IMG/VR virus record: IMGVR_UViG_3300017917_001870
Location: 1 to 20,961 of that record
Length of the DNA stretch: 20,961 nt
Source: a virus
Direction: 5' to 3' (one strand)
Position numbers and translations under genes: made by a program. The notes beneath the pieces are model-generated. The model saw only the letters and a list, made by a program, of their open reading frames with translations. It did not search any database and had not been told where the DNA came from. Positions 3,005 to 18,487 of this stretch are shown piece after piece; the stretch's first letter is position 1, and each line of letters begins with the position of its first letter.

Positions 3005-3033
3005 TTGACACAGTAGGAAACAACGCATATACT
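3005..3033 (+). promoter_or_regulatory. Strong sigma70-type promoter of gp32
   Basis: A perfect -35 hexamer TTGACA (3005-3010) is followed after exactly 17 bases by TATACT (3028-3033), one mismatch from TATAAT. Transcription would start near 3040, about 90 bases upstream of the gp32 ATG. The -10 hexamer sits inside the 5' arm of the terminator hairpin, so transcripts from this promoter start too late to form that hairpin. Confidence 0.75.
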
Positions 3034-3056
3034 ACTATGGTGTATGCGTTTTTTTT
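3022..3056 (+). terminator. Rho-independent terminator
   Basis: An 11-bp stem (AACGCATATAC at 3022-3032 with GTGTATGCGTT at 3040-3050, one G-T wobble) closes a 7-base loop and runs into a block of eight T (3049-3056). It would end transcripts coming from the terminase side. On the opposite strand the hairpin has no T run, so it acts only rightward. Confidence 0.85.
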
Positions 3057-3132: not shown

Positions 3133-4134
3133 ATGGCATCTTTAGCAGAAATCAGAGCAAGACTACAGGCAGCAGAAGGCAACAAAAACAAAGAATCAAC
3201 TGGTGGCGACAATTCAATTTACGCACACTGGAACATGGAAGAAGGCCAATCTGCAACAATCCGTTTCCTTCCAGACGGTAACTCCAAAAACACATTTTTC
3301 TGGCAAGAACGAGCAATGATTCGTTTGCCTTTCAATGGCGTCAAAGGAGAAATGGAGAGCAAGCAAGTGTACGTTCAAGTTCCTTGCGTTGAAATGTGGG
3401 GAGAAACTTGCCCAGTGCTTACAGAAGTACGCACATGGTTCAAGGACAAGTCACTAGAAGAAATGGGTCGCAAGTATTGGAAAAAACGCAGTTATATTTT
3501 CCAGGGCTTCGTACGTGAGAACCCACTTAGTGACGACAAGACTCCTGAGAATCCAATCCGCAGATTTATTATTGGCCCACAGATTTTTACAATCATCAAG
3601 TCAGCATTGATGGATCCAGAATTGGAAGAATTGCCAACTGACTTGTTGCGTGGTTTGGATTTCCGTGTCAGCAAAACAAGCAAAGGCGGATTCGCTGACT
3701 ACTCAACTTCTAAATGGGCTCGTAAAGAGTCATCATTGACAGAAGCTGAGCAGGCCGCAATCGAAAAGCATGGTTTGTTTGACTTGAGCACATTCTTGCC
3801 CAAGAAACCCACAGACGTTGAATTAAAAGTCATCAAAGAAATGTTTGAAGCATCGGTGGATGGCCAAGCATATGATGTTGAGCGTTGGGGTCAGTACTAT
3901 CGTCCAGCAGGCGTACAGGCACCAGCAGGTGCATCAACAGGTGCCGCACACGATGACGAAGAGTCGACACCAGCCGCAAAGCCAGCGCCGGTAGCTAAGC
4001 CAGCGCCAACTGTGTCTGCATTTGATGATGAAGATGATGCACCAGTGGCATCAGCACCAGTTGAGGCAGCCAAGCCAGCCGCACAAAATGCACAAGATAT
4101 TTTGGCAATGATTCGCAATAGACAAAAGCAGTAA
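3133..4134 (+). CDS. 32: Single-stranded DNA binding protein, T4 gp32-like
   Basis: gp32 coats single-stranded DNA during phage replication, recombination and repair and contacts UvsX, UvsY and the replisome. The 333-residue protein opens with the basic, Leu-rich segment SLAEIRARLQAAEG expected for the self-association region. The OB-fold core spans about residues 25-255 (YAHWNMEEGQ, IRFLPDGN, RRFIIGPQIF, FRVSKTSKGG). Two Cys remain in the zinc-site region (C85, C93), while T4 uses three Cys and one His, so metal binding is doubtful. After residue 258 comes a Pro/Ala/Lys linker broken by acidic patches (DDEE, DDEDD) and a basic tail, DILAMIRNRQKQ; T4 gp32 ends in an acidic tail instead. The start is fixed by a strong Shine-Dalgarno. 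A sigma70-type and a late-type promoter lie upstream. Confidence 0.93.
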   Translation: MASLAEIRARLQAAEGNKNKESTGGDNSIYAHWNMEEGQSATIRFLPDGNSKNTFFWQERAMIRLPFNGVKGEMESKQVYVQVPCVEMWGETCPVLTEVRTWFKDKSLEEMGRKYWKKRSYIFQGFVRENPLSDDKTPENPIRRFIIGPQIFTIIKSALMDPELEELPTDLLRGLDFRVSKTSKGGFADYSTSKWARKESSLTEAEQAAIEKHGLFDLSTFLPKKPTDVELKVIKEMFEASVDGQAYDVERWGQYYRPAGVQAPAGASTGAAHDDEESTPAAKPAPVAKPAPTVSAFDDEDDAPVASAPVEAAKPAAQNAQDILAMIRNRQKQ

Positions 4135-4145
4135 AATATTGTTGA

Positions 4146-4664
4146 ATGAGCAGTAGCTTTTACAGCGCAGATCAATGGGCTTACACACGTAAGCTCATTG
4201 ATTCACTTGTGCCTCTTCAAAAAGAATTTAAGCGATACCCATCTTTCCTTTACAAAGATCACGGTGAAAAGAAAATCCAAGTCACAGGATCCTGGAAGCA
4301 TATTTCTTTTTTAAGACGCAACAAAATTTTCTACTGGAATTGTTTGATGTTTCCTACGGTTAGGAAATTATTGACAGATATTCCAATTTATGATAACTGT
4401 CTAATTAGTATCATTGGCCCCAATGCCGCAATAGCCAAACATCCAGGACACAGTGATCAACATTTGCGAGTTCACTTGTGTTTAGATACAGAGGGCGGTG
4501 CCTTTATGCACATTGGCAACGAACGACAAGAGTGGCAAGCTGGCAAAGTTATGATATTTCAAGACAGCAAGACACATGAAGTAATTAATACTATGCCATA
4601 TCAAAGAACAGTGTTGTTGTTTGATATCAGACGAGAGGACTATTTTGATAATCTCATCAAATAA
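4146..4664 (+). CDS. Aspartyl/asparaginyl beta-hydroxylase-like 2OG-Fe(II) dioxygenase
   Basis: This 172-residue protein resembles the catalytic domain of the AspH family, which uses 2-oxoglutarate, oxygen and iron to hydroxylate aspartyl or asparaginyl side chains. The signature is clear: H99-x10-H110 within KHPGHSDQHLRVHL, then IGNERQEWQAGKVMIF, then H144 in DSKTHEVIN and R154 in YQRTVLLFDIRRE. H99 and H144 align with the two iron-binding His of AspH; R154 fits the 2OG-binding position. H102-S-D104 offers an alternative HxD pair. It lies between gp32 and uvsX, starts 11 bases after gp32 without a Shine-Dalgarno, and overlaps the next gene by 20 bases. The target protein or metabolite is unknown. 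Confidence 0.85.
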   Translation: MSSSFYSADQWAYTRKLIDSLVPLQKEFKRYPSFLYKDHGEKKIQVTGSWKHISFLRRNKIFYWNCLMFPTVRKLLTDIPIYDNCLISIIGPNAAIAKHPGHSDQHLRVHLCLDTEGGAFMHIGNERQEWQAGKVMIFQDSKTHEVINTMPYQRTVLLFDIRREDYFDNLIK

Positions 4665-5244
4665 GCATTTAGTTATTGTGTCGTTTGACACAATTACTTG
4701 TCGAGATCTAATCTCGTTTATCAGTGAACACCATGGCTATTCTGTGGATCAAGTTGATCCTTATGATTTTTTAACAGACGCCCCGGTACCCGATCGTTCG
4801 TACATTAACTTGGTAATCAAGGAAATTGATCTACGTAAAAAAGTCACAGACTATCTTGACAGATTTAATCTTGATCGATTTTCTTTGTTGCATGATCAAT
4901 CGCATTACACACATGCCACTGTGGGTCCAGGATGCATGATATACCCAATGGTAACGTTATACCCGAATTCAAAACTACAAAAAGATGTAATAGTCCACTC
5001 AATGACACTGATTGCACATCAATGTTACATTAGTACCGGATGTTTTATCAGTGGCGGATGCACTGTTGCTGGTAGTTCTGTAATTGGAGAATTTACACAG
5101 TTTGGTATTGATGTGTCAGTATATGATCAAATATCAATACCAGCCAATACAATTATTGGTGCAGGGAGTGTAGTTAGAAAAACATTAACCGAACCTGGTA
5201 CATATACAGGGCAAGTTGGTAACAAATTAATTAAATTAAAATGA
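4645..5244 (+). CDS. Left-handed beta-helix (hexapeptide) acyltransferase, NeuD/PglD-like
   Basis: Enzymes of this family transfer acetyl groups from acetyl-CoA to sugar hydroxyl or amino groups. Residues 1-80 form an alpha/beta N-terminal domain, and from about 88 onward hexapeptide turns repeat (HATVGPGCMIYP, DVIVHSMTLIAH, GEFTQFGIDV, ANTIIGAGSVV). His125 in LIAHQC fits the catalytic-base position of PglD-like acetyltransferases. I chose the TTG at 4645 because AGAGGA lies 5 bases upstream. An earlier in-frame TTG at 4621 would add 8 residues and lengthen the overlap with the dioxygenase gene. The stop overlaps the next ATG (ATGA), which suggests translational coupling. The substrate is unknown. 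Confidence 0.8.
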   Translation: MIISSNKHLVIVSFDTITCRDLISFISEHHGYSVDQVDPYDFLTDAPVPDRSYINLVIKEIDLRKKVTDYLDRFNLDRFSLLHDQSHYTHATVGPGCMIYPMVTLYPNSKLQKDVIVHSMTLIAHQCYISTGCFISGGCTVAGSSVIGEFTQFGIDVSVYDQISIPANTIIGAGSVVRKTLTEPGTYTGQVGNKLIKLK

Positions 5245-6200
5245 TTTCTCTTGCACCATACAACAATATCTTTCACAGCACGAACTTACCCGATGAGGTA
5301 ACGTTGGAAGATCATTTGTATGGTTTTGATCAGAGACTAGATAACAAACTATTGGCGCACATCGACAACAGTGCAACCAAACAAAACAAACGAATACAAG
5401 TCAGTTATCATCAAATACTAGAGACTGGAATAGTTGATAGATATAAAAACTTAGATATAAAATTCAAGCTATCAAGTCGTATAAAACAATTATTATGGCA
5501 ATCGTTTGTCAACTACTCGACGCACCCTGATCTAAGTTATAAAAATTTCGTTTGCAGTTTTAATGGCAGTGATCATGTTAGTCGAAAGCTATTAACAGCA
5601 ATTTTAAAACGTTTTGGGCATTACCATCCGGATTACTGTAGTAAAAATTTTGTGTTTACAATTGATAAACTTGATGGACACATACGTGACTATGTGGCCG
5701 ATCAAGATAATTTTTATCGCAAGTTTTTTATAGACGACACTAGCAAAGAATTTTTTGATACTGTTAACAGTTTTGGACATGTGCAATACAATCATAAACA
5801 AAACATTTATAACTTGGAATCAAAACTAACTCAAAGTTTTTTGCACATTGTAAGTGAAACTATGGCCACAAGTTATGTACCATTTGTTACCGAAAAGTTT
5901 TTGTATAGTGTGGTAACTCGTGGATTGTTTTTAACCTATGCTCAACCAGGCTGGCACCATCATGTTGAAAAATATTATGGGTTTAAAAAATATACCAAAT
6001 TGTTTGATTATCAATTCGATGCAATACAAAATCCAGTTGAAAGATTGGTTGAGCTAATGGCTGTAATTTCAAAGTTTTCAAAGTTGTCGTCACACGATTG
6101 GCATGATTTATATTTGATCGAGCAAGACACAATAGAATACAATTATGATCACTATTTTAGTGGGAAGTATTTAGAACAATTAAGCAGGCTTGAAATTTGA
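5241..6200 (+). CDS. Putative glycosyltransferase, 319 aa
   Basis: No family is certain. The C-terminal part, residues 202-270, reads HIVSET, then PFVTEKFLYSVVTRG, then PGWHHHVEKYYGFKKY, LFDYQFD and NPVERLVEL. This arrangement resembles the nucleotide-sugar-binding half of GT10-like and related GT-B enzymes, where a (V/I)TEK segment precedes a pocket region and a Gly-Phe turn. Residues 1-195 are rich in Lys, Asn, Tyr and His and match nothing I know. The gene is coupled to the acyltransferase by an ATGA overlap and is strikingly A+T-rich: 15 of 60 bases at 5401-5460 are G or C, against 29 of 60 at 6541-6600 inside uvsX. This suggests a different origin from the core genes. The uvsX promoter -35 box overlaps its stop codon. 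Confidence 0.5.
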   Translation: MISLAPYNNIFHSTNLPDEVTLEDHLYGFDQRLDNKLLAHIDNSATKQNKRIQVSYHQILETGIVDRYKNLDIKFKLSSRIKQLLWQSFVNYSTHPDLSYKNFVCSFNGSDHVSRKLLTAILKRFGHYHPDYCSKNFVFTIDKLDGHIRDYVADQDNFYRKFFIDDTSKEFFDTVNSFGHVQYNHKQNIYNLESKLTQSFLHIVSETMATSYVPFVTEKFLYSVVTRGLFLTYAQPGWHHHVEKYYGFKKYTKLFDYQFDAIQNPVERLVELMAVISKFSKLSSHDWHDLYLIEQDTIEYNYDHYFSGKYLEQLSRLEI

Positions 6201-6225
6201 CTTTGGCTTGTCTTTAATATAAAAT
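6197..6225 (+). promoter_or_regulatory. Sigma70-type promoter of uvsX
   Basis: TTGACT (6197-6202), a 17-base spacer and TAAAAT (6220-6225) give one mismatch in each hexamer against the sigma70 consensus. The start point would be near 6232, leaving a leader of about 23 bases with the Shine-Dalgarno AAGGAAA (6243-6248). The -35 box overlaps the stop codon of the gene before it. Confidence 0.65.
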
Positions 6226-6254
6226 AGTAGTAACTCATTTAAAAGGAAACAATC

Positions 6255-7310
6255 ATGGGAAAACCATTTGACGTATCAAAGTTCCGCAAGGAAATTACCA
6301 AAAGCATCGACGGCTTGTCGATTGGATTCAATGATCCCACTGACTGGATCAGCACAGGTAACTATGCCTTGAACTATTTGATCTCAGGCGACTTTAATAA
6401 AGGCATTCCATTAGGCAAGGTCACAGTATTTGCCGGAGAATCAGGTGCAGGTAAGAGTTATATCTGTTCAGGCAACATTGCTAAAAATGCACAGGAGCAA
6501 GGTATCTTTGTTGTGTTGATTGACAGTGAAAACGCACTGGACGAAGATTGGCTCAAGGCCTTGGGGGTAGACACAAGTGAAAGCAAACTGCTCAAACTCA
6601 GCATGGCCATGATCGATGACGTTGCCAAAACTATCTCAACATTCATGGCCGACTACAAGGCCTTGCCCGATGGCGAGCGTCCTAAAGTATTGTTTATTAT
6701 TGACAGCTTGGGCATGTTGTTGACTCCTACAGATATCAATCAGTTTGATAGTGGTGATCTAAAAGGTGACTTGGGTCGTAAACCCAAAGCACTGACAGCA
6801 CTTGTTCGTAACTGTGTTAACATGTTTGGTAGTTACAATGTAGGCCTAGTGTGTACCAATCACACATACGCTTCACAAGACATGTTTGACCCAGATGACA
6901 AAATTTCAGGCGGTCAAGGTTTTATCTACGCTAGTTCCATTGTGGTTGCCATGAAGAAGATGAAACTCAAAGAGGACGAGGACGGCAACAAGATCTCCGA
7001 AGTCATGGGCATCCGTGCTGGTTGTAAAGTTATGAAAACACGCTATGCCAAACCCTTTGAAGGCGTGCAAGTCAAAATTCCTTATGAAACAGGCATGAAT
7101 CCCTACAGTGGACTTGTGGACTTGGCCGAAAAGAAAGGTCTGCTCAAGAAAGATGGCAATCGCTTGATGTTTGTTACGTCGGACGGTGAAATCATCAAAC
7201 AGTTCCGTAAGGCCTGGGAGAGCAACGAAGATGGGTGCCTAGACAAGGTCATGGCTGATTTTAAAAATCAAAAAGAAACAGTAAGCACCGAAGAAGAAGT
7301 CGCAGAATAA
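6255..7310 (+). CDS. uvsX: RecA-like recombinase UvsX
   Basis: UvsX forms filaments on single-stranded DNA and drives strand exchange for recombination-dependent replication and repair. The 351-residue protein is near the usual length (T4 UvsX has about 390). The Walker A motif GESGAGKS is at 61-68, the Walker B strand VLFIIDS at 145-151, and ENALDEDWL at 92-100 sits in the usual place for the catalytic Glu region. A Gly-rich segment, KISGGQGFIYASS, fits the second DNA-binding loop. The tail is acidic (TEEEVAE), as in other family members. It has its own promoter and Shine-Dalgarno. The next gene starts at the base after its stop codon. Confidence 0.95.
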   Translation: MGKPFDVSKFRKEITKSIDGLSIGFNDPTDWISTGNYALNYLISGDFNKGIPLGKVTVFAGESGAGKSYICSGNIAKNAQEQGIFVVLIDSENALDEDWLKALGVDTSESKLLKLSMAMIDDVAKTISTFMADYKALPDGERPKVLFIIDSLGMLLTPTDINQFDSGDLKGDLGRKPKALTALVRNCVNMFGSYNVGLVCTNHTYASQDMFDPDDKISGGQGFIYASSIVVAMKKMKLKEDEDGNKISEVMGIRAGCKVMKTRYAKPFEGVQVKIPYETGMNPYSGLVDLAEKKGLLKKDGNRLMFVTSDGEIIKQFRKAWESNEDGCLDKVMADFKNQKETVSTEEEVAE

Positions 7311-8903
7311 ATGAAAAACAAAAAAGTAGTTATTATAGGTGGTGGTACTGCCGGCTGGATGACAGCCGCTTACCTATTAAAATACTACGGTAAAAACAAT
7401 CAGATTACATTGATTGAATCCCCAACTATACCAAGAATTGGTGTAGGTGAGTCTGTTACACCACATGTAGCAAAATTTTTTGATGAGATTGGTGTTCCTC
7501 AGGCACATTGGATGAAGCATACTGGTGCTGTGTACAAATATGCTAACAAATTCATTGGCTGGAAAACTGGACAAGGTGAAACAGAGTACTTTAGCTTTAA
7601 CTACACAGTACCTGCTGATAGTCTTTACAAAGATATATCGCCAGCTACAACAATCAATGATTTTTCCAATGATACCACACAGCCTAGAAGTACCGACTAT
7701 GCGTTAGATCTGTGTGAGCGAGGAGTTTTTTCTAGGTTTGATCAGTGTTTCAACCCACAGTATCATTACATGGAAAAAAATGTTTCGCCTTTTGAAAAAA
7801 ATCAAATGTTGCTGAATGGGCCTGGCAGTTATGCACAACATATAAATGCCGAACTTGCTGGAAATTACATAAAAGAGTTCATAGCAATACCCGGTGGAAT
7901 TACTCACATTGTGGCCACAGTAGTTGATGTAACACACGATGCAGATATAATCTCTTCTGTGACCTTAGACAATGGCGAAACAGTTGATGGAGATTTGTTT
8001 GTTGACTGTAGCGGGTTTTCCAGAGCGTTGATCAAGCACCTTGGGTGGGAAGAAAAAATTTACGAACACCATCCCATAAATCGAGCCTGGGTGTGCCAGA
8101 CTGACTATGTTGACCCTGAAAAAGAAATGGTCAACTACACACAAAGCATCGCTGAGCCCCATGGATGGAGATTTAAAATTGGACTATATCATCGCATGGG
8201 AAATGGGTATTGTTTTAGCAGTGATCATGTATCAGACGACGATGCTCTTGATTATTTTATCAAGCAGATCGGGCCACAGAGACGCCCTCCTAGGTTGATT
8301 AAATGGACACCATCAAGATTAAAAACCTTTGCCAGTGGTAATACAGTTGCAATCGGACTTACATGTGGATTTATTGAGCCGTTGGAGGCCAATGCTCTCT
8401 ATACTATAATCACAAGTATAAAACGCTTAACAGATGTTCTTTCAACCGGAGACTTCAATGACTGGTCTACGTATAACGAAAAGATGTCTTTTACCATAGA
8501 TGATATTGCAGATTTTATTCTAGTGCATTATACTTTAAGTAATAGAAGAGATACCAAATTTTGGCAGGACATGTCAGATCGTGGAATTTCTTTACAACAT
8601 CATAAATTAGTATGGGAAAAATACTACGAGATGAAAAATTCTATGCACGGAGCAATTACTGGTTACACAATGTTCCCCGATTATATGTGGGCACAACTGG
8701 CCAGGTCTTGGGATCTTCCAAGATCAGTTCCATTAACACTGGACAAAGATCTACAGCAGTTAGCTCAAATGCATTTTCAGTATGTTGAGAAAAAGCACGA
8801 ATTTATTTCACAAACAAGACAAAATAATTTTCAGTGGTTGAAGGAAAATATATTTGAAAATTTTTCACCATCGCAGTGGGAAGAAAAGTATATTAAAAGT
8901 TAG
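7311..8903 (+). CDS. Flavin-dependent tryptophan-halogenase-like enzyme
   Basis: These enzymes use FADH2 and oxygen to make hypohalous acid, which a conserved Lys steers to the substrate. The 530-residue length fits. The FAD-binding motif IGGGTAGW is at 9-16 and IPRIGVGES at 40-48. K76 in the YK of VYKYANKF aligns with catalytic Lys79 of RebH and PrnA, and the GFIEPLEA segment (353-360) keeps the conserved Glu residues. The usual WxWxIP motif is altered to WRFKIG (286-291). Substrate and halide cannot be told from sequence. A halogenase from a marine cyanophage, VirX1, is known from earlier work, so phage halogenases have precedent. The gene follows the uvsX stop directly and has no promoter of its own that I can see, so it is likely co-transcribed with uvsX. 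Confidence 0.9.
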   Translation: MKNKKVVIIGGGTAGWMTAAYLLKYYGKNNQITLIESPTIPRIGVGESVTPHVAKFFDEIGVPQAHWMKHTGAVYKYANKFIGWKTGQGETEYFSFNYTVPADSLYKDISPATTINDFSNDTTQPRSTDYALDLCERGVFSRFDQCFNPQYHYMEKNVSPFEKNQMLLNGPGSYAQHINAELAGNYIKEFIAIPGGITHIVATVVDVTHDADIISSVTLDNGETVDGDLFVDCSGFSRALIKHLGWEEKIYEHHPINRAWVCQTDYVDPEKEMVNYTQSIAEPHGWRFKIGLYHRMGNGYCFSSDHVSDDDALDYFIKQIGPQRRPPRLIKWTPSRLKTFASGNTVAIGLTCGFIEPLEANALYTIITSIKRLTDVLSTGDFNDWSTYNEKMSFTIDDIADFILVHYTLSNRRDTKFWQDMSDRGISLQHHKLVWEKYYEMKNSMHGAITGYTMFPDYMWAQLARSWDLPRSVPLTLDKDLQQLAQMHFQYVEKKHEFISQTRQNNFQWLKENIFENFSPSQWEEKYIKS

Positions 8904-8915
8904 GAGAAGGGTGCA

Positions 8916-9170
8916 ATGCCAATTACAGTAGCCAAAGAGCTTTGGAGTGAATTAAAACGTTATGTTAACACAGTGGATCGAGAAGAAGCCGCAGAAACTG
9001 TAGTCAGTGTGTTAATTGATAACGATATTGATCCAGAAGATATCAAAACTGAATTTAAAAGTGATGCAGACATCAAACGTGCATTAACTCATTACCTCAA
9101 AGATCAGGAAGAGGAAGAAGAAGACGATGACTACGAAGAAGATGATTACGACGAGGATGAAGATTACTAA
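8916..9170 (+). CDS. Small protein with a very acidic tail, 84 aa
   Basis: I do not recognise the family. Residues 1-65 form a probably helical domain with an internal acidic character (DREEAAETVV, DNDIDPEDIK, SDADIKRALTHYL). From residue 68 to the end nearly every residue is Asp, Glu or Tyr. Such a tail could mimic DNA or bind a basic protein, but nothing proves it. The start follows a good Shine-Dalgarno, AGGAGA at 8902-8907, which overlaps the halogenase stop codon. The stop shares one base with the uvsY start (TAATG), so it is probably translated together with uvsY and may serve recombination. Confidence 0.85.
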   Translation: MPITVAKELWSELKRYVNTVDREEAAETVVSVLIDNDIDPEDIKTEFKSDADIKRALTHYLKDQEEEEEDDDYEEDDYDEDEDY

Positions 9171-9622
9171 TGTGGTATAGTCGAGTTGTGGCTAATCTGG
9201 GATTGATCCCAGATTTCATCGCACATTATGAAGCCGAGCTTGAAAAAGCCAAAGCAGAAGTTCGTGTGGGCGGGTTGATTGAAAAAAACATCAAAGAGTT
9301 GCCGGGGATCACCGAGCATAGATTCAATCAGCTACAAGAAATCGAAGCCATATTAAATTTTCTCAACATACAGCTACGCAAAATACGCCGTAGACATTTT
9401 CAAAAATATCTTGAGGGATACGCTCGTGCATTGACTAGCCGAGATGCTGAAAAATATGTGGACGGTGAAGATGAGGTAATTGACTTTGAAACTATCATCA
9501 ACGAAGTGGCTCTTTTAAGAAATAAATGGTTGGGTATTATGAAAGGTCTGGATACCAAACAATGGCAAATGGGCCACATTGTCCGCTTGCGTACAGCAGG
9601 CATGGAAGATATCACAGTATAA
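9170..9622 (+). CDS. uvsY: Recombination mediator UvsY
   Basis: UvsY helps UvsX displace gp32 from single-stranded DNA. The 150-residue protein is close to T4 UvsY (137 residues) in length. It is helical and charged, and carries the segments I associate with aquatic T4-like UvsY: ALTSRDAEKYVDGED at 96-110, NEVALLRNKWLGIMKGL, and QWQMGHIVRLRTAGMED near the end. Its place in one block with gp32 and uvsX supports the call. It is coupled to the acidic-protein gene by a TAATG overlap. Similarity to T4 UvsY itself is weak by eye, so the assignment leans on the marine relatives and context. Confidence 0.85.
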   Translation: MWYSRVVANLGLIPDFIAHYEAELEKAKAEVRVGGLIEKNIKELPGITEHRFNQLQEIEAILNFLNIQLRKIRRRHFQKYLEGYARALTSRDAEKYVDGEDEVIDFETIINEVALLRNKWLGIMKGLDTKQWQMGHIVRLRTAGMEDITV

Positions 9623-9633
9623 ATTTTCAACCC

Positions 9634-11461
<1,828 letters not shown>

Positions 11462-11470
11462 AATATAAGT

Positions 11471-11478
11471 GTTAAATA
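11471..11478 (+). promoter_or_regulatory. Possible late-type promoter box in a divergent gap (GTTAAATA)
   Basis: The 42-base gap between two divergent starts (11461 and 11504) is A+T-rich. GTTAAATA keeps the TAAATA core of the late consensus and would start transcription near 11484, leaving room for the Shine-Dalgarno AAGGAA at 11494-11499. A weak sigma70-like pair, TTGGTC (11438-11443) and TAATAT (11461-11466) with 17 bases between, is also there. I found no clear signal for the leftward gene. Confidence 0.35.
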
Positions 11479-11503
11479 TCTCAATATAGTTATAAGGAAA
11501 ATC

Positions 11504-12331
11504 ATGAGCCGTAAATTCTCTGTGGTAACAACATTTCATCGTGCTGGATATGACAAATATGCCAAGCGTTTGATTCAAACGTTTTTACAAAATTGGCCCC
11601 AAGAAGTCGATCTTGTTGTGTATCCTGAAGATCACACCATAGAAGAAAGTGCACCAAATTTGATTGTGCGTGACTTACACGCTAGTTCACCCGAGCTCGT
11701 GGCGTTCAAACAGCGTTGGAGCAATGATCCTAGAGCAAGAGGAGAAGTTGCCATGGGCCCCGCAGATCGCAAAGGCAAACAACCGGGCATAGGTTTCCGT
11801 TGGGATGCCATACGATTTAGTCACAAGATATACGCTGTATGTCATGCCGCAAAGAACACCGATGCTGATGTGTTATTTTGGATGGATGCTGACATGGTAT
11901 GTCACACTCCTATCACATTAGATTTTATTGAAGGCCAAATTCCCCCACCAGTGGGCTTGGCATTTTTAGGTAGAGAAAAGAAGTTCACTGAATGTGGCCT
12001 GTATGCGATAAACTTGAAAGATCCTGTAACACAGGCTTGGTTACGTGAGTTCCAGTTAGCATATGATTCAGGTAGACTCATGACCATGGCTGAATGGAAT
12101 GACTGTTGGGTATTTGATGAAACTAGAAAAGAAGTACAAGCATTGAATCCAACGTGGCAACAACTAAATTGGTCAGCTGGACTGATCAAAGGTGAAGGGC
12201 ACCCGTTAATCAATACAGCGTGGGGTGCGTACTTGGATCATTTGAAAGGTCGTCGTAAAGACACTGGACGTAGTCACGCCAAAGATCTTATTGTTGACCG
12301 GAAGGAAAGTTACTGTTCCGCGGTGAGCTGA
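11504..12331 (+). CDS. GT-A glycosyltransferase, DAD motif (paralogue E)
   Basis: The 275-residue protein has a GT-A layout. A first beta strand FSVVTTFHRAGYDKYA leads to a nucleotide-binding region, and the metal-binding DxD motif is D128-A-D130 in VLFWMDADMV. The acceptor-side segment TECGLYAINLKDP follows. Its closest relative in the window is the convergent gene at 12310-13035, with which it shares the TTFxxxY start, the NWP/HWP turn, W-DADV and the G-(L/V)-(Y/F)-A-(I/V)-NLK block. The start at 11504 is supported by AAGGAA 5 bases upstream; an in-frame ATG at 11438 lacks one and would overlap the divergent gene. Donor and acceptor are unknown. Confidence 0.85.
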   Translation: MSRKFSVVTTFHRAGYDKYAKRLIQTFLQNWPQEVDLVVYPEDHTIEESAPNLIVRDLHASSPELVAFKQRWSNDPRARGEVAMGPADRKGKQPGIGFRWDAIRFSHKIYAVCHAAKNTDADVLFWMDADMVCHTPITLDFIEGQIPPPVGLAFLGREKKFTECGLYAINLKDPVTQAWLREFQLAYDSGRLMTMAEWNDCWVFDETRKEVQALNPTWQQLNWSAGLIKGEGHPLINTAWGAYLDHLKGRRKDTGRSHAKDLIVDRKESYCSAVS

Positions 12332-13035
12332 CTGTAAGTGTGTTTACTGTGTTTTGCTTTCCAGTGCATTAGGTATTTTCCCAACACAGTATGACGCATA
12401 GGAGTTTTGTAGGCTTTGGCCAATCCTTTGCACCAGTCAAGATATTCAGCAGGTACTTTCTTAACTGCGGCACCTAGAACATCGTTGTCATAGGCTCTAC
12501 GCAAATCAGCAAAATCTCTTTCACGATAACGTCTAGCATATTCTTCTCTAAAATCAGCAAATTGTGGATGCTTTAAGTTTACAGCAAACACTCCAGTCTC
12601 GGGTACTAGCCAACGTCCAGGATTGCCGTCCTTGTCCTCATAATACGTCACCCCCATGTAAGCTGAAAGATATTGCTTGGTCAGTTGCGATTGCCAAAAA
12701 TCTACTGGAACGGCAGCTTCGGACAGCACGTCGGCATCAATCCATACCAGCCAGTCGGCAGTGCTGTTATACATGGCATGGATAAAAGGATAGGCTTTTT
12801 TGCTAAACTTTTTTACACTGCTATGAAAATCTTCGTTTTGTAATGCCCAGTAACTGGATTCTAAATTAGAAAAATCAATTTGTTTTATTCTAGGATTGTC
12901 GGGCAAACTAAATTCTTCTACGTAACAGGTTAGACTCATGTGTTTTGGCCAGTGTTCTAAATATGTAGAAACACAGTCTTTGCCTATTAGATCAAAGTAC
13001 TTTTGATTAAAACTAGTAATAACTTCAATGTTCAT
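12310..13035 (-). CDS. GT-A glycosyltransferase, DAD motif (paralogue F)
   Basis: This 241-residue protein is a paralogue of the convergent neighbour at 11504-12331. The strand MNIEVITSFNQKYFD begins it, the DxD motif is D100-A-D102 in WLVWIDADVL, and ETGVFAVNLKHP lies on the acceptor side. It ends in a basic segment, HWKAKHSKHTY. Its last 22 bases overlap the end of paralogue E on the other strand, so the pair is tail to tail. It is the last gene of a six-gene leftward operon and overlaps the gene before it by four bases (ATGA). Confidence 0.85.
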   Translation of the reverse strand: MNIEVITSFNQKYFDLIGKDCVSTYLEHWPKHMSLTCYVEEFSLPDNPRIKQIDFSNLESSYWALQNEDFHSSVKKFSKKAYPFIHAMYNSTADWLVWIDADVLSEAAVPVDFWQSQLTKQYLSAYMGVTYYEDKDGNPGRWLVPETGVFAVNLKHPQFADFREEYARRYRERDFADLRRAYDNDVLGAAVKKVPAEYLDWCKGLAKAYKTPMRHTVLGKYLMHWKAKHSKHTYSQLTAEQ

Positions 13036-13988
13036 CTTTTAGCCCATTTCTTCATGTGGTTCCAACAAGCACCGTTGGCGATTTCTTCATGGCACCAGTG
13101 AAACTGCGCCAAGCGTTCTACCCAACGCTGACGATCGGGCATGCTAGGATTCTCGATATCCGCTAACACAGTGTTGGCAACATCGGTACACTGACTGCGC
13201 ACAGGGTCAGTCACAAACACTGGTACACCTTCGATAACAGCGCCTACTGCGGGGCTGGAGTTGTGGTTAACCACTGCCCAACAATTATGTAAATCACTTA
13301 CTAAATCAACCTGTGGTTGACTCAATGAAATCCCCCCAAATTTGTTTATTTGGCACAAACGCATGATTCGTTCGCAATCACTGCCAGCACCTTTATCGCC
13401 GGGGTGCGACCTTATGCGAATTGGTCTGTTGGTGTACCTACGCAAATCACGAATGGTATTTACAGCCCACTCCACTGTAGTAACACCGGCCATACTCCAG
13501 CCACCGTTGCGCTGTAAACACAACAATATGTGATCTCCTTGCACACGCCAAGGCTGTAATTCTAATCCAATGTCTGCTTTAATTTGTTGCCAACGTTGTG
13601 GATCTGGATCCTGGTCACAGTATTCACCTGTATTGGGAAACACACCATCGTAGCTGTAACGCTGATATGTTTTGGGATTGGCTGTGTTTTTGTACAAAAA
13701 CAAATTGCTGTCAGCAATGATAGTTCTACCACCGTTGGCGTTTTGATTATCTACGATCTGTTTTCTAAATGTTAGATGTGGTGCTGTTTTACCGTGTTCG
13801 TGTACCCAGCCCAGCATAAATGCTACTTCACTGGGTTGATAATTTATAGTATTTTCTACAATACCAACGTCCCCAGCGGCACAGACACCTTGCGCAAATC
13901 CAGTAAGTGTCAGGAACTTATGGTCAGTGCTGTGAGGTCTTGACAGCAGTTTGCTGGGCAAAGTGGCTATGTAGCTAACAACTTTCAT
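13032..13988 (-). CDS. GT-B-like glycosyltransferase paralogue B
   Basis: Second of the four KpsC/KpsS-like paralogues, 318 residues. It has GDHILLCLQR at 151-160, RPIRIRSHP with HP at 195-196, and the block VVNHNSSPAVGAVIEGVPVF near 240. It closes with ADIENPSMPDRQRWVERLAQ and CHEEIANG. In GT-B capsule enzymes the HP and the Ser-rich G-x-P block lie at the nucleotide-sugar site; that role here is inferred. The ATG shares one base with the stop of paralogue C (TAATG), and its own stop overlaps the start of paralogue F. It has a longer N-terminal region than the others. Confidence 0.78.
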   Translation of the reverse strand: MKVVSYIATLPSKLLSRPHSTDHKFLTLTGFAQGVCAAGDVGIVENTINYQPSEVAFMLGWVHEHGKTAPHLTFRKQIVDNQNANGGRTIIADSNLFLYKNTANPKTYQRYSYDGVFPNTGEYCDQDPDPQRWQQIKADIGLELQPWRVQGDHILLCLQRNGGWSMAGVTTVEWAVNTIRDLRRYTNRPIRIRSHPGDKGAGSDCERIMRLCQINKFGGISLSQPQVDLVSDLHNCWAVVNHNSSPAVGAVIEGVPVFVTDPVRSQCTDVANTVLADIENPSMPDRQRWVERLAQFHWCHEEIANGACWNHMKKWAKR

Positions 13989-15022
13989 TATTTCTTTTTA
14001 CCACCCTTGGATATTTTTTCAATGATTGTGTTGATTGGGGGCAGTAATCGTTCCCAAGCCACGCCAGACTGCATTTCTTCTACACTGTATTGACATTGTG
14101 CCAAGTGACGTAACCATGTGTTTACAACATTGGAATCAGCTAGAGTTAACCGTTCAATTTCTTCAAGATAGTGGCTGCTAAAGGGCCAAGCAAAGTTTCC
14201 GTTGTCGCAGGCCACTGTGGGAATACCAGATAACACACTGTCAATGGCTAGTCCACTGGTGTACGTTACTGTACAATATGCACTGCGCAAATCCTCTTTC
14301 CATGGGATCATAGCACCGTCGCTGAACTTGATACCTGTGATATTGTTCATTAAAACTTGTCTGGCTAAACTTTCGTGATCAGCCATGGCACGTCCTGATG
14401 ACAGTGGATGATTTCTCACCACAATGGGTCGTTGACTGTGTTTACGAATTTCTTGTATGGCACTGAATGCCCAGTCATTGATATCTATTCCACGGAGACT
14501 GGCATCTCCAGGTAACTGTAATGCCAACAGTATATGTCCATTGGGATTGTTACGCCAGCCTTGCCACTCGCCAATGCCCAAATTGCTAAGACGATGTTGC
14601 CCAACTCCTTCGTCATACTCGGGCCATGTGGCGCTTTGGCATAAGAACCCATTTACGCCCATTCGCCACTGTGAATTTGGTGCATCGGTTACACGATTCA
14701 GCAACGGGGTTTCGATACAAACAAAACATCTACTGCTACCGGCCACACTGCTTCTGGTCATGTGATGATTTTTTTCTCTGGCTTTCCAACTACCAAAGAA
14801 CACAGCTACATCACATTCTGTATATCCTTCTGCATATTCATAATCCAAGGCATGCGTAAGCCCAATGTCAAGATCTGCCCAACGTCCAATGCGCACCATA
14901 TCTGTTTGCGGTGGCTGGCCATTTTGCTGAGTTACCCAGTTTTGTATCCCTTGACCAAACTTCATCAAGATATCTCGCTCTTGATAGTTACTGGCCGAAC
15001 CCATGAAAATTTTAATTAGCAT
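13988..15022 (-). CDS. GT-B-like glycosyltransferase paralogue C
   Basis: Third paralogue, 344 residues and the longest. The first strand MLIKIFMGSASNYQERD leads to KFGQGI, and the region CDVAVFFGSWKAREKNHH at 70-87 follows. It keeps NGHILLALQ at 161-169, RPIVVRNHP with HP at 205-206, and TYTSGLAIDSVLSGIP at about 253-268. The tail is basic (KISKGGKKK). It overlaps the end of paralogue D by 11 bases. The target is unknown; the shared motifs make a sugar transferase with a nucleotide-sugar or phospho-sugar donor the best guess. Confidence 0.78.
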   Translation of the reverse strand: MLIKIFMGSASNYQERDILMKFGQGIQNWVTQQNGQPPQTDMVRIGRWADLDIGLTHALDYEYAEGYTECDVAVFFGSWKAREKNHHMTRSSVAGSSRCFVCIETPLLNRVTDAPNSQWRMGVNGFLCQSATWPEYDEGVGQHRLSNLGIGEWQGWRNNPNGHILLALQLPGDASLRGIDINDWAFSAIQEIRKHSQRPIVVRNHPLSSGRAMADHESLARQVLMNNITGIKFSDGAMIPWKEDLRSAYCTVTYTSGLAIDSVLSGIPTVACDNGNFAWPFSSHYLEEIERLTLADSNVVNTWLRHLAQCQYSVEEMQSGVAWERLLPPINTIIEKISKGGKKK

Positions 15023-15818
15023 TTAATATCCTGTAAGCTGTTCCATCTTTTAATTCATTGACATGAAATTGTCCATAGGCAAGATGACATGCCCATGCAT
15101 GTATTTTATCATCTCCAGCCCAGTACGGAGAATCTATTTGACTGAGATCCTGTGATGCAACTGGGCTGGCTGCATTGGCAGGTGCCAGTGTAAAAGCTGG
15201 CACACCATGCATTACACTCTCTACAGCGGCCACACTGTTAAAAGTAACCAATGCATGCACATCATCAGCCAGCACTTTTGCCAAGGGATCACTGTGTGTT
15301 CGATCAATGCGCTTGGGTGCTCGTTGACGCACTACTATAGGGCGATCAGTGTATTGTTTGATTTTTGCCACAGTTTCCTCTACCCAGGTGTCATATTTTA
15401 CATTGTAAAACTTACATGGTTTTTCGTCGGGTGCGGCAACAACAATTTTGCTACCATGACGTCTTGGGTGTAACGTGATGTTTAATTTGTTCCAACGATC
15501 ACTGGGACGTGGTACAATGTCACCGTGCTGTAAATTGTTCTTTACAATCCTATGCCACAGTTTCCATCCATTGGGGTTTTGTGGATTGGGTTGATTACCA
15601 AAGTATCCTGAATCAACATAGTAGAAGTCTCGTTGATTGGCCCAGCACTGTTTCATTATTTTGTGTTTGAGTATGCCACGCAACACTATGGGATTGGTAC
15701 TACTGTCGTAATTAAAATCATCTGTGTTGGTCACTGGCGCACCAACACCGCGGGCAAACATGTTTACGTATTCGTCGTTGCCATTCTTACTAAGAAAAAT
15801 CCAATTACTTGATGTCAC
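15012..15818 (-). CDS. GT-B-like paralogue D with altered HP motif
   Basis: Fourth paralogue, 268 residues. It aligns with the others through SKIVVAAPD, RPIVVRQRAPKR, ALVTFNSVAAVESVMHGVPAF and a closing CHLAYGQFHVNELKDG region. Unlike A, B and C it lacks His-Pro after RPIVVR (QRAP at about 165-168), so its activity may differ or be lost. I choose the GTG at 15818: it puts 20 residues before FARGV, as in paralogue C, and overlaps the previous gene by only 14 bases. An ATG at 15890 would overlap by 86 bases and add residues without counterparts; an ATG at 15764 would cut off the first strand. No Shine-Dalgarno supports any of them. Confidence 0.7.
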   Translation of the reverse strand: MTSSNWIFLSKNGNDEYVNMFARGVGAPVTNTDDFNYDSSTNPIVLRGILKHKIMKQCWANQRDFYYVDSGYFGNQPNPQNPNGWKLWHRIVKNNLQHGDIVPRPSDRWNKLNITLHPRRHGSKIVVAAPDEKPCKFYNVKYDTWVEETVAKIKQYTDRPIVVRQRAPKRIDRTHSDPLAKVLADDVHALVTFNSVAAVESVMHGVPAFTLAPANAASPVASQDLSQIDSPYWAGDDKIHAWACHLAYGQFHVNELKDGTAYRILNAN

Positions 15819-16491
15819 GTTGTTGACAGTATTCGGTATAGATACGTTCCCTGTGCCACTCGTCGCCCATGGGAGTTGTTGCAAATTCATGGAAGCTGGG
15901 AGTACCTAGTGTGTAATGCAACAGCTTGGCATCAGGATTTGGGCCATACTCGTCTGGCAGCCAGTTCCACTCAGGCGGCAATTCGCCAATACGATCATCT
16001 GTGGTCCACTCAAATCTGTGCAAGTGAGCGCCAGTGGATTTTTGAATGTATTCGGGTGTGAGTTTTTTGGTTGGATAATTGTTACAGTTAAAGATCATTA
16101 CACTGCTCCAATTCTTACGAGGATAGTCTTCGTTTTTGCTGCCAAGGTACTTTTCTGTCATTTTGGTTTTATAGTCGTGTTTGACTACCATGACATCTTT
16201 ACCACCTTCGCGCAATGCCCATAACTCAGCAATGTCGCCGCGTACAATCATATCACCGTCCATGAATATAGCATCACCTTGATAGCTCATCAAGTGCGGC
16301 ACTAAAAATCTTGAATAGATAAACTGGTTACTACCGTCGGTGTGGGTTTCAGTATAGTCTTTAAAGTTGTTTAATGCCAAGGGAATGATAGCTACAGGAA
16401 CACTAGAGTTTCTAATGATACTGTTAGCACAAACATGATATGCAATGGCTTCTCTTGGATCGTACCCGATAAAAATTGGAATAGGTGTCAT
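15805..16491 (-). CDS. GT8-like glycosyltransferase
   Basis: A 228-residue GT-A enzyme that resembles the GT8 family (retaining hexosyltransferases). PIFIGYDPREAIAYHV at the start matches the usual first strand and activator turn, D78-G-D80 in IFMDGDMIV is the metal-binding DxD, and NWSSVMIFNC and LLHYTLGTPSF with its His fit later GT8 blocks. It overlaps the gene before it by four bases and the one after by about 14, so it is translated as part of the leftward operon. The sugar is unknown. Confidence 0.85.
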   Translation of the reverse strand: MTPIPIFIGYDPREAIAYHVCANSIIRNSSVPVAIIPLALNNFKDYTETHTDGSNQFIYSRFLVPHLMSYQGDAIFMDGDMIVRGDIAELWALREGGKDVMVVKHDYKTKMTEKYLGSKNEDYPRKNWSSVMIFNCNNYPTKKLTPEYIQKSTGAHLHRFEWTTDDRIGELPPEWNWLPDEYGPNPDAKLLHYTLGTPSFHEFATTPMGDEWHRERIYTEYCQQRDIK

Positions 16492-17255
16492 TGTCGTCTT
16501 TCTATATCTTCTTCAATACAACGTTCGCCATATTGAATTTCTACCACACGCAATTCTTCTGTGCCTTCGTTGCACAGTTGGTGCCACTCATTGTTGTTGA
16601 TGTGGATATGCTTGAATTTTTCAAATACACCCAATAGTTCCGCATCGGTTTTTTGATTGATAGTATAAACAGTAGCAGTACCTTGTGCCACAAACCAGTG
16701 TTCGGCACGATCTCGATGACGTTGCATACTAAGACTTTGTCCCGGGGCAACTGTGAGTTCTTTGACCTTGACTTCAGATGCCTGCTCGTGCAACACTCGA
16801 TAATAACCCCATGGTCGAACAGTTTTGGGAGCCTTCCATTCTGCCAAAATCCACGATGAAGAATTGGCTTTGTTAAAACCACCTACCCCAAACACAAATT
16901 TAACATTGGGGTCTTCCACATCCATTTCGGGAATGTTTTTGTCAGTGCGATCACCGCCATTGGCAAAAATTAACTCTGCTGTGGGATAATGTGCTCGTAC
17001 TTGTCGGATGAATTGTTTTGCAGATCCATCTTCATCATCAAATGTATAGACTTCGTCCACCATTGATAGATTATTTACAACGCATAATCTCTCATTCCAC
17101 GGCATAAACGCACGACCTTTTTTACGTTCAAGCCATTCGTCAGAATTCAATCCAACGATTAACATGTCGCCCATGGCTCTTGCCGCTTTGAAGTATGCTA
17201 TGTGACCGGAGTGAATCGGGTCAAACCCGCCTGTAACTAATACGATTTTTTTCAT
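16488..17255 (-). CDS. Fusion: HxGH nucleotidyltransferase plus mannose-6-phosphate-isomerase-type cupin
   Basis: The first 140 residues form a cytidylyltransferase-like domain. GGFDPIHSGH at 9-18 holds the HxGH motif (H15, H18), as in the nucleotidyl domain of HldE/RfaE, which joins a sugar phosphate to a nucleotide. From about residue 145 the chain is a cupin like the C-terminal domain of type II phosphomannose isomerases: RPWGYYRVL, VKVKELTVAPGQSLSMQRH, R-x-EHWFV, NEWHQL and LRVVEIQYGE. Q178, H180, E185 and H225 fit the metal ligands. In ManC the cupin is joined to a GT-A-type guanylyltransferase, so this pairing is unusual. It is the first gene of the leftward operon, starts with ATG five bases after a perfect TATAAATA box, and has no Shine-Dalgarno. 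Confidence 0.85.
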   Translation of the reverse strand: MKKIVLVTGGFDPIHSGHIAYFKAARAMGDMLIVGLNSDEWLERKKGRAFMPWNERLCVVNNLSMVDEVYTFDDEDGSAKQFIRQVRAHYPTAELIFANGGDRTDKNIPEMDVEDPNVKFVFGVGGFNKANSSSWILAEWKAPKTVRPWGYYRVLHEQASEVKVKELTVAPGQSLSMQRHRDRAEHWFVAQGTATVYTINQKTDAELLGVFEKFKHIHINNNEWHQLCNEGTEELRVVEIQYGERCIEEDIERRQ

Positions 17256-17260
17256 GCTAA

Positions 17261-17268
17261 TATTTATA
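17261..17268 (-). promoter_or_regulatory. T4 late promoter box, perfect TATAAATA
   Basis: Read leftward, the eight bases are TATAAATA, identical to the T4 late consensus. Five bases (TTAGC) separate the box from the ATG at 17255, whose position is fixed by the GGFDPIHSGH domain nine residues in. T4 late transcripts begin about 6 bases after the box, so the mRNA would start at or within a base of the ATG. It would drive the six-gene leftward operon 17255-12310. Confidence 0.7.
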
Positions 17269-17282
17269 TGTGTAGATAATGG

Positions 17283-17290
17283 TGTAAATA
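17283..17290 (+). promoter_or_regulatory. T4 late-type promoter box (TGTAAATA)
   Basis: TGTAAATA, six or seven of eight matches to the late consensus depending on the position weighting, ends five bases before the ATG at 17296. It mirrors the leftward box at 17261-17268 across a 40-base divergent gap. The predicted start again falls on the ATG, so this transcript too would be leaderless. Confidence 0.5.
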
Positions 17291-17295
17291 CATTT

Positions 17296-17856
17296 ATGGA
17301 TCATTTTTATCAAAGTATAGATGGTTTTATGAATCATCGCAACATGGATTTTTTGAATCGAGCTATTGAGGAATTTCCCACTGGGGGCACCTGGGTAGAA
17401 CTCGGATCATGGACTGGCAAAAGTGCGGCCTATTGTGCCGTGGAACTGATTAATCGCAACAAGATTGGAAAATTTTATTGTGTGGACAGTTGGTTGGGAG
17501 GCCCTGAAAACTACGATCCCACAGTATTAAAAAATCTCAAACCAATTTTTGAAAACAACATTGCCCCGATAGCACAACATATCTCAACTATAGAAGGCAT
17601 GAGTTGGGACGCAGCCACAAAATTTGAAGATGGGACTGTGGATTTTTGTTATGTAGATGCTGGCCATACCTATGAATGTGTCACAAATGATTTGCGTGCT
17701 TGGTGGCCCAAGATACGTCCAGGTTCTATTTTTGGTGGGGATGACTACACCAAGGGTTACCCGGGCCTGCAACAGGCAGTTTGGGATTTTTTCAAACCCA
17801 TGAATATCAAAGTCAACAGAATGGGACGTTGTTGGGTAGTAAGGAAGCCCGCATGA
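17296..17856 (+). CDS. Class I SAM methyltransferase-like protein
   Basis: A 186-residue Rossmann-fold protein of the Methyltransf_24 kind. Motif I is ELGSWTGKS at 35-43, followed by the acidic strand end FYCVDSW (D64) that would hold the SAM ribose. FCYVDAGHTYECVTNDL and GSIFGGDDYTKGY fit motifs IV and VI, with the Asp pair typical of metal-dependent O-methyltransferases. Placed in the glycan island, it may methylate a sugar. The ATG at 17296 has no Shine-Dalgarno but sits just after a late-type box; an in-frame TTG at 17254 would run into the divergent gene. It overlaps the next gene by four bases. Confidence 0.8.
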   Translation: MDHFYQSIDGFMNHRNMDFLNRAIEEFPTGGTWVELGSWTGKSAAYCAVELINRNKIGKFYCVDSWLGGPENYDPTVLKNLKPIFENNIAPIAQHISTIEGMSWDAATKFEDGTVDFCYVDAGHTYECVTNDLRAWWPKIRPGSIFGGDDYTKGYPGLQQAVWDFFKPMNIKVNRMGRCWVVRKPA

Positions 17857-18485
17857 CCTGGATTACCAAATTTCAAGAACAGTATTATCCGATACTGATG
17901 CCCAAGGATCGTGGGCCCAAGTTCCAACTGGCATCTGGCCACTTCCATCGTGGTCCGGGGTTTTTGTTGATGTTTCAAAAACTACTAGCACAGCGTAATA
18001 ACAATTTTAAAATAATTGAAACTGGTACGCTGAGAAAACCTGGCAATTGGAAAGACGGACAAAGTGCTTATCTCTTTACAGAGTTTGTAGACTATTATGG
18101 CGGTAGTGTACGAAGTGTAGACATAGATCCTGCAGCCGTTGACACTGCGAACGATTATATCAAAAGCAATAGATTTTCTAGCTATTGCAGTGACAGTGTA
18201 AAATTTTTACAAGAACAAACTGATTTGCACGAAGTTGATTTGTTTTACTTAGATAGTTGGGACGTGAAGTGGGAAGACGATTCTGCCAGCGCCGAACATC
18301 ATCTCAAAGAATTCATGGCCATCGAACAGTATCTCAAGCCCGGTGCTGTTGTGGCCATTGATGACAACTCCAGGAAGTTATCAGACGACCGTAGGACCGG
18401 TAAAGGCCGCCGCATTGTAGAATATCTTGCAGACAAAGGTGTACAACCCATTTATGATGCGTATCAAATTATCTATCAGTTTTAA
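17853..18485 (+). CDS. Second SAM methyltransferase-like protein
   Basis: A 210-residue protein with a Rossmann-type order of motifs: IIETGTLRKPGNW at 54-66 in the place of motif I, SVRSVDIDP with acidic D90 and D92, EVDLFYLDSWD at 127-137, and GAVVAIDDN at 164-172. The motif I loop is longer and less Gly-rich than usual, so SAM binding is probable but not certain. It starts at an ATG that overlaps the previous stop (ATGA); a longer in-frame start at 17781 lies deep within the previous gene. It may methylate a sugar of the same glycan, or form a pair with the gene before it. Confidence 0.7.
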   Translation: MTWITKFQEQYYPILMPKDRGPKFQLASGHFHRGPGFLLMFQKLLAQRNNNFKIIETGTLRKPGNWKDGQSAYLFTEFVDYYGGSVRSVDIDPAAVDTANDYIKSNRFSSYCSDSVKFLQEQTDLHEVDLFYLDSWDVKWEDDSASAEHHLKEFMAIEQYLKPGAVVAIDDNSRKLSDDRRTGKGRRIVEYLADKGVQPIYDAYQIIYQF

Positions 18486-18487
18486 CT

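Follow-up and report, generated by a model that had tools for sequence, protein, structure and literature searches.

The hyperplastic region of T4-like cyanophages lies among structural genes. In such hyperplastic or hypervariable regions (Millard et al. 2009, as cited in PMC3037559), conserved phage genes enclose dense groups of auxiliary enzyme genes from diverse sources. In T4, free-standing homing endonuclease genes occur beside gene 32 and uvsX, with segG at 32/59 and segA at uvsX/beta-gt, and several seg-type genes use upstream promoters while the promoters of the core genes they displaced lie inside them (PMC2988022). PrnA-like genes have been reported in cyanophages (PMC3037559), halogenases in 20 of 153 cyanophages (PMC10452541), and Pelagibacter phage HTVC008M carries a dioxygenase gene and a Trp_halogenase-family gene within a core block, between its small and large terminase genes. 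Phage halogenases, a dioxygenase–halogenase pair in a core block and hypervariable auxiliary regions are known already. Here we analyze a complete virus record of 20,961 bp (IMG/VR IMGVR_UViG_3300017917_001870, hereafter the window), in which four enzyme genes, aspH, lbh, orf3 and hal, lie among the recombination genes gp32, uvsX and uvsY. The gap between gp32 and uvsX is probably a fixed exchange site in uncultured aquatic relatives of giant T4-like phages, through which small groups of enzymes that modify sugars, fatty acids or halogens come and go; the interval from uvsX to uvsY would serve in this way less often. No account of such a slot was found in a limited literature set, and its address, its empty and filled anatomy and the orf3 family appear to be undescribed.

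The site resembles the cyanophage regions in its content and differs from them in its address, the gp32–uvsX interval, and in belonging to relatives of jumbo phages. With the T4 homing endonucleases it shares mobile genes by gene 32 and uvsX, upstream promoter use and promoters for the displaced core gene; unlike them, the window slot holds no recognized endonuclease, its cargo consists of enzymes, and the trace left by exchange is a set of homologous tracts. The HTVC008M pair differs in that its dioxygenase is annotated as a phytanoyl-CoA dioxygenase, its site is another one and its halogenase has a canonical WxWxIP motif. The genes concerned are as follows.

3133..4134, + strand: gp32, single-stranded DNA-binding protein, left border of the slot (PHROG 1192, E 2e-70)
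4146..4664, + strand: aspH, AspH-like 2-oxoglutarate (2OG)/Fe(II) oxygenase, 172 amino acids (Pfam PF05118, Asp_Arg_Hydrox, E 6e-26)
4645..5244, + strand: lbh, left-handed beta-helix, NeuD/PglD-like sugar N-acyltransferase, likely starting at TTG 4645 (longest open reading frame (ORF): TTG 4621) (Hexapep, E 4e-13)
5241..6200, + strand: orf3, GT-B-like protein of a virus-only family confined to the gp32–uvsX gap (AlphaFold2 (AF2) model and VIA matches)
6255..7310, + strand: uvsX recombinase, right border of the slot (PHROG 97, E 2e-69)
7311..8903, + strand: hal, Trp_halogenase-family flavoprotein at the rarely used uvsX–o84 junction (PF04820, E 9e-94)
8916..9170, + strand: o84, acidic 84-residue ORF between hal and uvsY (present in most uvsX relatives)
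9170..9622, + strand: uvsY recombination mediator (PHROG 231, E 2e-13)
9671..10645, + strand: gmd, GDP-mannose 4,6-dehydratase, opening a nucleotide-sugar/glycosyltransferase island (PF16363, E 8e-124)

The core genes run in the order terL, vir (a virion-like protein), gp32, uvsX, o84, uvsY, gmd and glycosyltransferase island, with aspH, lbh and orf3 filling the gp32–uvsX interval and hal the uvsX–o84 interval, in the same run as the recombination genes. The initial annotation had placed a dioxygenase, an acyltransferase, a putative glycosyltransferase and a halogenase between gp32 and uvsY, and we find all four there, on the + strand. It had also described the first three as A+T-rich next to gp32 and uvsX, which a per-gene check bears out for all four: G+C is 0.462 in gp32, 0.380 in aspH, 0.364 in lbh, 0.329 in orf3, 0.441 in uvsX, 0.385 in hal and 0.415 in uvsY, and core-likeness of codon use is 0.007–0.047 for the four enzymes versus 0.158 for gp32 and 0.129 for uvsX.

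Relatives were fetched by uvsX only, so the cargo did not bias the sample; the 80 nearest uvsX loci were taken, 64 of which show both the gp32 and the uvsX border. Taking an insert of at least 400 bp as a filled gap, the gp32–uvsX gap is filled in 46 of these 64, with inserts of up to 4.2 kb, and empty gaps among the same relatives measure ∼60–80 bp. The corresponding rates at other junctions are 0/14 for terL–vir, 3/25 for vir–gp32, 4/75 for uvsX–o84 and 30/70 for o84–uvsY. The gap houses 28 sequence families across the 64 loci, most of them in few loci. Over all slot loci, cargo that could be recognized includes radical SAM proteins of the twitch type, a formyltransferase, an AMP-ligase, a fatty-acid desaturase, a sugar C-methyltransferase, a protein like NAD-epimerases, weak arginine-deiminase-like and sulfotransferase-like matches, and, in loci L147 and L156, further AspH-family oxygenases. 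In the cultured phages Phosso, Vibrio 2.275.O, Atu_ph07, CBB and Munch, the gap is 51–75 bp long and gene-free (0/5 filled). The locus thus shows the fixed core borders, variable content and empty sites of a hypervariable auxiliary-gene site. Cargo in the gp32–uvsX gap has a G+C below that of its own core genes (mean −0.083, with 96% of 216 ORFs A+T-richer), and uvsX–uvsY cargo is A+T-richer by 0.072 (n = 74), so that low G+C marks the cargo of the site generally and not this cassette. The earlier impression that tailoring-type enzymes are foreign to a replication and recombination block holds in both respects, the cargo being A+T-richer across relatives and the gap being empty in cultured jumbo relatives.

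The way in which cargo is fitted between its borders is visible at both ends of the slot. In the window, aspH starts 11 nt past the gp32 stop codon and lbh and orf3 overlap through ATGA; the three genes had been described as overlapping, which stands for this second junction and, for aspH and lbh (20 nt), only if lbh begins at TTG 4645, a start inferred from the Shine–Dalgarno site GAGAGGA that precedes it. A scan of the flanking regions gave the following signals.

3005-3033, + strand: sigma70-like promoter TTGACA-17-TATACT (11/12), upstream of gp32 (consensus scan only)
3022-3050, + strand: terminator-like hairpin, upstream of gp32, overlapping the 3005-3033 promoter (consensus scan only)
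6197..6225, + strand: sigma70-like promoter TTGACT-17-TAAAAT (10/12), just in front of uvsX and starting from the orf3 stop codon (consensus scan)

In empty slots a hairpin with a stem of at least 7 bp follows gp32 in 20 of 21 cases, and a sigma70-like promoter of at least 10/12 precedes uvsX in 0 of 21. Half of the filled slots retain the hairpin, and in 35% of them a promoter scoring at least 10/12 stands directly before uvsX, versus 2.4% in shuffles; in the window slot the strong post-gp32 hairpin is lost. The T4 late promoter TATAAATA was found neither near the cassette nor in 156 uvsX upstream regions. Cargo would enter just past the gp32 stop codon, either before or behind the gp32 hairpin, and aspH, lbh and orf3, packed behind gp32, would probably be translationally coupled. 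Given this tight packing and the promoter at the orf3 stop, the cargo could be co-transcribed with gp32 and uvsX could have its own start; cargo-bearing phages would often carry a sigma70-type promoter immediately ahead of uvsX.

Apart from the uvsX-chosen sample, 78 loci were found by searching with orf3 itself, and wherever the borders are in view in these, the orf3 relatives sit between gp32 and uvsX. The gene is patchy, occurring in 8 of the 64 loci with both borders and in 12 of the 80 uvsX-chosen loci, where a hidden Markov model search found no extra copy. Pairwise identities in orf3 and uvsX correlate at r = 0.23, versus r = 0.75 for gp32 and uvsX, and in one pair of loci (L054 and L055) orf3 is 100% identical while gp32 is just 72% identical. 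The window and locus L023 have a tract in common inside orf3:

5553..5980, + strand: recombination tract common to the window and L023, 428 bp with 4 mismatches (99%) (alignment)

Identity between the two is ∼48% from the end of gp32 to ∼5552, 99% over 5553–5980 and lower thereafter. Across the family, mean pairwise identity is 25% in the N-terminal ∼95 residues of orf3 and 60% in the remainder. A fixed place, independent ancestry and internal tracts together point to exchange of orf3 by homologous replacement; the tracts are observed, and the mechanism is what they suggest. Such swapping would be possible through the high similarity of gp32 and of uvsX from one related phage to another and through the conserved center of orf3, so that homologous recombination would change the content while the site stays fixed.

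Two other ideas about orf3 were set aside. That it is a core gene of the group was rejected, since its presence in 78/78 loci describes a set chosen by orf3 and falls to 12/80 in the uvsX-chosen set. A link between N-terminal type and upstream cargo is weak (permutation p 0.004, uncorrected for kinship) and has a counter-example in L030/L036. A tandem orf3 pair was seen at L090:4190-6080 and L091:1-1132, its fuller copies 44–45% identical to that of the window.

By sequence, the orf3 protein could be placed in none of the families of Pfam, PHROG, NCBIfam or the PDB. Its AF2 model (pLDDT 88.6) matches in VIA T4 BGT (Z 9.2), FUT9 (9.0) and HpFucT (alpha1,3-fucosyltransferase, 2NZX; 8.9), and most top rows are GT-B enzymes (Z 7.4–9.2). 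A TEK motif at residues 217–219 is invariant or near-invariant; we take it, as a lead only, to be like the donor-site motif of GT10 enzymes. Assignment by sequence to GT10 or T4 BGT was rejected: Pfam matched none of 38 members, related records gave nothing over cut-off, and PDB sequences yielded no match. The earlier call of a putative glycosyltransferase therefore keeps its footing in a modeled GT-B-like fold and a motif and has no sequence family behind it. A motif-based scan of ∼85,000 bacterial and archaeal genomes found no kin of orf3, a result that covers motif-keeping proteins only. The gap could go further and be a dedicated diversification site, with orf3 as a glycosyltransferase specific to viruses whose donor half stays constant while its N-terminal part is hypervariable, coupled to interchangeable acyl- and sugar-making partner genes, its decoration specificities traded by homologous recombination. 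We consider this extension unlikely; if true, decoration specificities would be traded inside a gene cluster that itself drives recombination.

The partner genes of orf3 in the window are enzymes of recognizable families. The product of aspH scores 91.7 bits against PF05118 (cut-off 22.6), which places it in the family, and in alignment with human AspH the Fe-binding His pair and the 2OG-binding Arg are retained. Its nearest named families are the lipid acyl hydroxylases OlsC and LpxO. It is not LpxO or OlsC by the NCBIfam equivalog cut-offs (31.5 bits with 500 required, and 41 with 450), nor AspH proper, a TPR-bearing enzyme acting on EGF-like domains, as its 172 residues hold one catalytic domain and no second Pfam domain over cut-off; besides L023, no close relatives were found in viral contigs. 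The lbh product shares with the PglD/NeuD/PerB sugar N-acetyltransferases the hexapeptide fold and, in alignment with PglD (E 5e-12), region 56–198 and the His of 'IxHxC'; to TIGR03570 (NeuD/PglB/VioB; E 6e-25) it is alike over residues 56–197, but it scores 87.9 bits, below the cut-off of 160.8.

The order aspH–lbh–orf3 recurs once, in L023, and orf3 comes after lbh at each locus that shows the two (the window, L023, L044, L101, L149 and L158). Some of these gaps also hold an acyl-active or oxygenase gene, namely aspH (window, L023), an AMP-ligase (L044) or a desaturase (L158). From this recurrence, the constant pairing and these companion genes we tentatively read aspH–lbh–orf3 as a possible sugar-acyl tailoring module, with hal apart from it, a reading that we hold a little short of even and that the PglD likeness of lbh, the OlsC/LpxO proximity of aspH, the GT-B-like fold of orf3 and the downstream gmd/glycosyltransferase island support. 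Here, aspH would make or hydroxylate an acyl group, lbh would place an acyl group on an amino sugar, and orf3 would move a nucleotide-linked sugar to an acceptor, tailoring a phage- or host-made glycan.

Several points weigh against the slot and module readings. The IMG/VR contigs are partly redundant, and slot loci are non-independent, with some near-duplicates; the promoters and hairpins are consensus matches and not mapped starts; the fold likeness of orf3 is modest (Z ∼9, rmsd 4–6 Å); aspH and lbh each fall under the curated cut-off of all named NCBIfam subfamilies tested; an acyl-active gene is missing from many orf3 loci, which leaves few to carry the module reading; and the substrates and products of all four enzymes are predictions. 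Alternatively, the genes could be unrelated auxiliary genes each kept singly, with aspH, lbh and orf3 no joint pathway either. The thin spread of most of the 28 gap families over the loci and the AspH-family genes in slots without orf3 (L147, L156) fit this alternative, but the company of lbh and orf3 at all loci showing the two and the order kept in L023 despite identities of 38% for aspH and 34% for lbh do not, and we think it somewhat doubtful.

The fourth gene, hal, scores 315 bits against PF04820 (cut-off 21) and belongs to that family. It has the flavin adenine dinucleotide motif GxGxxG as GGGTAG, and K76 (K79 of PrnA/RebH) and the EPLE glutamates E356 and E359 (catalytic Glu E346/E357) are retained and invariant in 11 clade members. 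In contrast, the WxWxIP motif, reported to prevent monooxygenase behavior (PMC5945002), is replaced by WRFKIG (WxFxIG) in the window and by WxF throughout its viral clade, while it is canonical or near-canonical in cyanophage and L187 halogenase proteins. For that reason we file hal as a superfamily member; halogenation is possible, judging from these residues, but not assured. Like VirX1 (E 2e-53) and the cyanophage PrnA-like halogenases, hal is a phage-encoded Trp_halogenase-family flavoprotein, but its clade, whose members are 38–68% identical to it, has the altered motif and forms its own branch. A motif-based scan of ∼85,000 bacterial and archaeal genomes found no kin, again covering motif-keeping proteins only.

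The nearest hal relatives lie in phages without gp32 or uvsX nearby. In unrelated phage contigs (L002, L003, L006, L009, L010 and L013) the clade adjoins amidinotransferase-like, radical SAM, SGNH-like, aminotransferase-like and ∼170-residue proteins, a neighborhood looking like a phage natural-product cluster. If the cargo served to make a small molecule or an altered peptide in infected cells, this would accord with the radical SAM, amidinotransferase-like and methyltransferase genes, kinds that occur in relatives of the slot and also, in other phages, next to the kin of hal. Yet no precursor peptide, nonribosomal peptide synthetase or polyketide synthase was noticed, the cross-matches are mostly 25–42% identical, and the load of the window lacks amidinotransferase-like and radical SAM genes, which makes this explanation quite unlikely.

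The initial annotation had suggested that the set may modify one substrate, which is taken here as all four enzymes acting serially. They do share a strand, adjacency, low G+C and codon use, and a dioxygenase–halogenase adjacency recurs in HTVC008M and in Synechococcus phage Sf-CH11. However, hal lies between uvsX and uvsY in the window only and in no other slot locus, the halogenase genes of related phages (L176, L037 and L041) are elsewhere in the genome and far from uvsX, and orf3 is widespread without aspH or hal, in most loci without aspH or lbh; no hal was seen in L023 either, though that fragment ends inside orf3. Low G+C, as noted, is general for slot cargo. The co-occurrence check thus shows that the four do not travel as a unit, and the independent occurrence named beforehand as refuting a single set is seen for hal. 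A common substrate is very improbable for all four; a joint tailoring module is plausible for aspH, lbh and orf3. We infer that hal is separate cargo, acquired independently.

Halogenase-family genes were also seen in other settings: two neighboring ones far from uvsX in the L037 and L041 records (G004:C1:159334-161765 and G006:C1:2784-5215), with one match containing an internal TGA; one right after annotated recombination endonuclease genes and near a sliding clamp gene in Synechococcus phage S-B64 (L197:4998-6569); and one amid three 2OG-Fe(II) oxygenase genes in Sf-CH11 (L205:1823-5102).

Since T4 beta-gt adjoins uvsX (PMC2988022) and orf3 has a BGT-like fold, we tested whether orf3 might glycosylate DNA in the manner of T4 beta-GT, in a slot serving DNA hypermodification. 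The top VIA match to T4 BGT and the replication-gene setting favor this, but the matches to FUT9 and HpFucT are just as good and have a lower rmsd, and the T4 glucosyltransferase models in Pfam do not match orf3. No PF00303 gene (thymidylate-synthase fold, T4 gp42 family) occurs in 24 related records, among them contigs of 353, 342 and 213 kb, and no PF00145 gene (C5-cytosine methylase) in 24, leaving the proposal highly improbable, the T4-type route unsupported with room for other routes, and the nucleobase substrate first suggested unlikely.

To judge from its genes, the window is part of the genome of a jumbo phage of the T4 superfamily that has not been cultured. Its uvsX is 65–68% identical to those of T4-superfamily jumbo phages, namely Sinorhizobium phage Phosso (469 kb), Vibrio phage 2.275.O (349 kb), Agrobacterium phage Atu_ph07 (490 kb; reported near Rak2-like phages, PMC6102473), CBB (378 kb) and GAP32, and terL places it likewise; no DNA-level match was found among 50,697 phage records. 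Downstream, gmd scores 403 bits against TIGR01472 (cut-off 415), and a long island at 10622-20072 holds genes for nucleotide sugars, methyltransferases and glycosyltransferase-like proteins, which alternate in orientation; several have no Pfam match, and pieces of the island are common to relatives. Elsewhere, uvsX at L083:1928-3391 and terL at L061:1-1395 are split by ∼380 bp, for which Rfam gave no intron match.

Taken as a probable exchange site, the gp32–uvsX gap is a clear case in which the arrival of auxiliary genes at one constant position within an essential recombination block of phages can be counted. Its vacant and occupied forms can be seen, as can recombination tracts and promoters gained, which allows models of metabolic gene trade among phages to be tested, and the glycosyltransferase-like orf3 family and the halogenase branch of hal are now defined and accessible to direct biochemical test.

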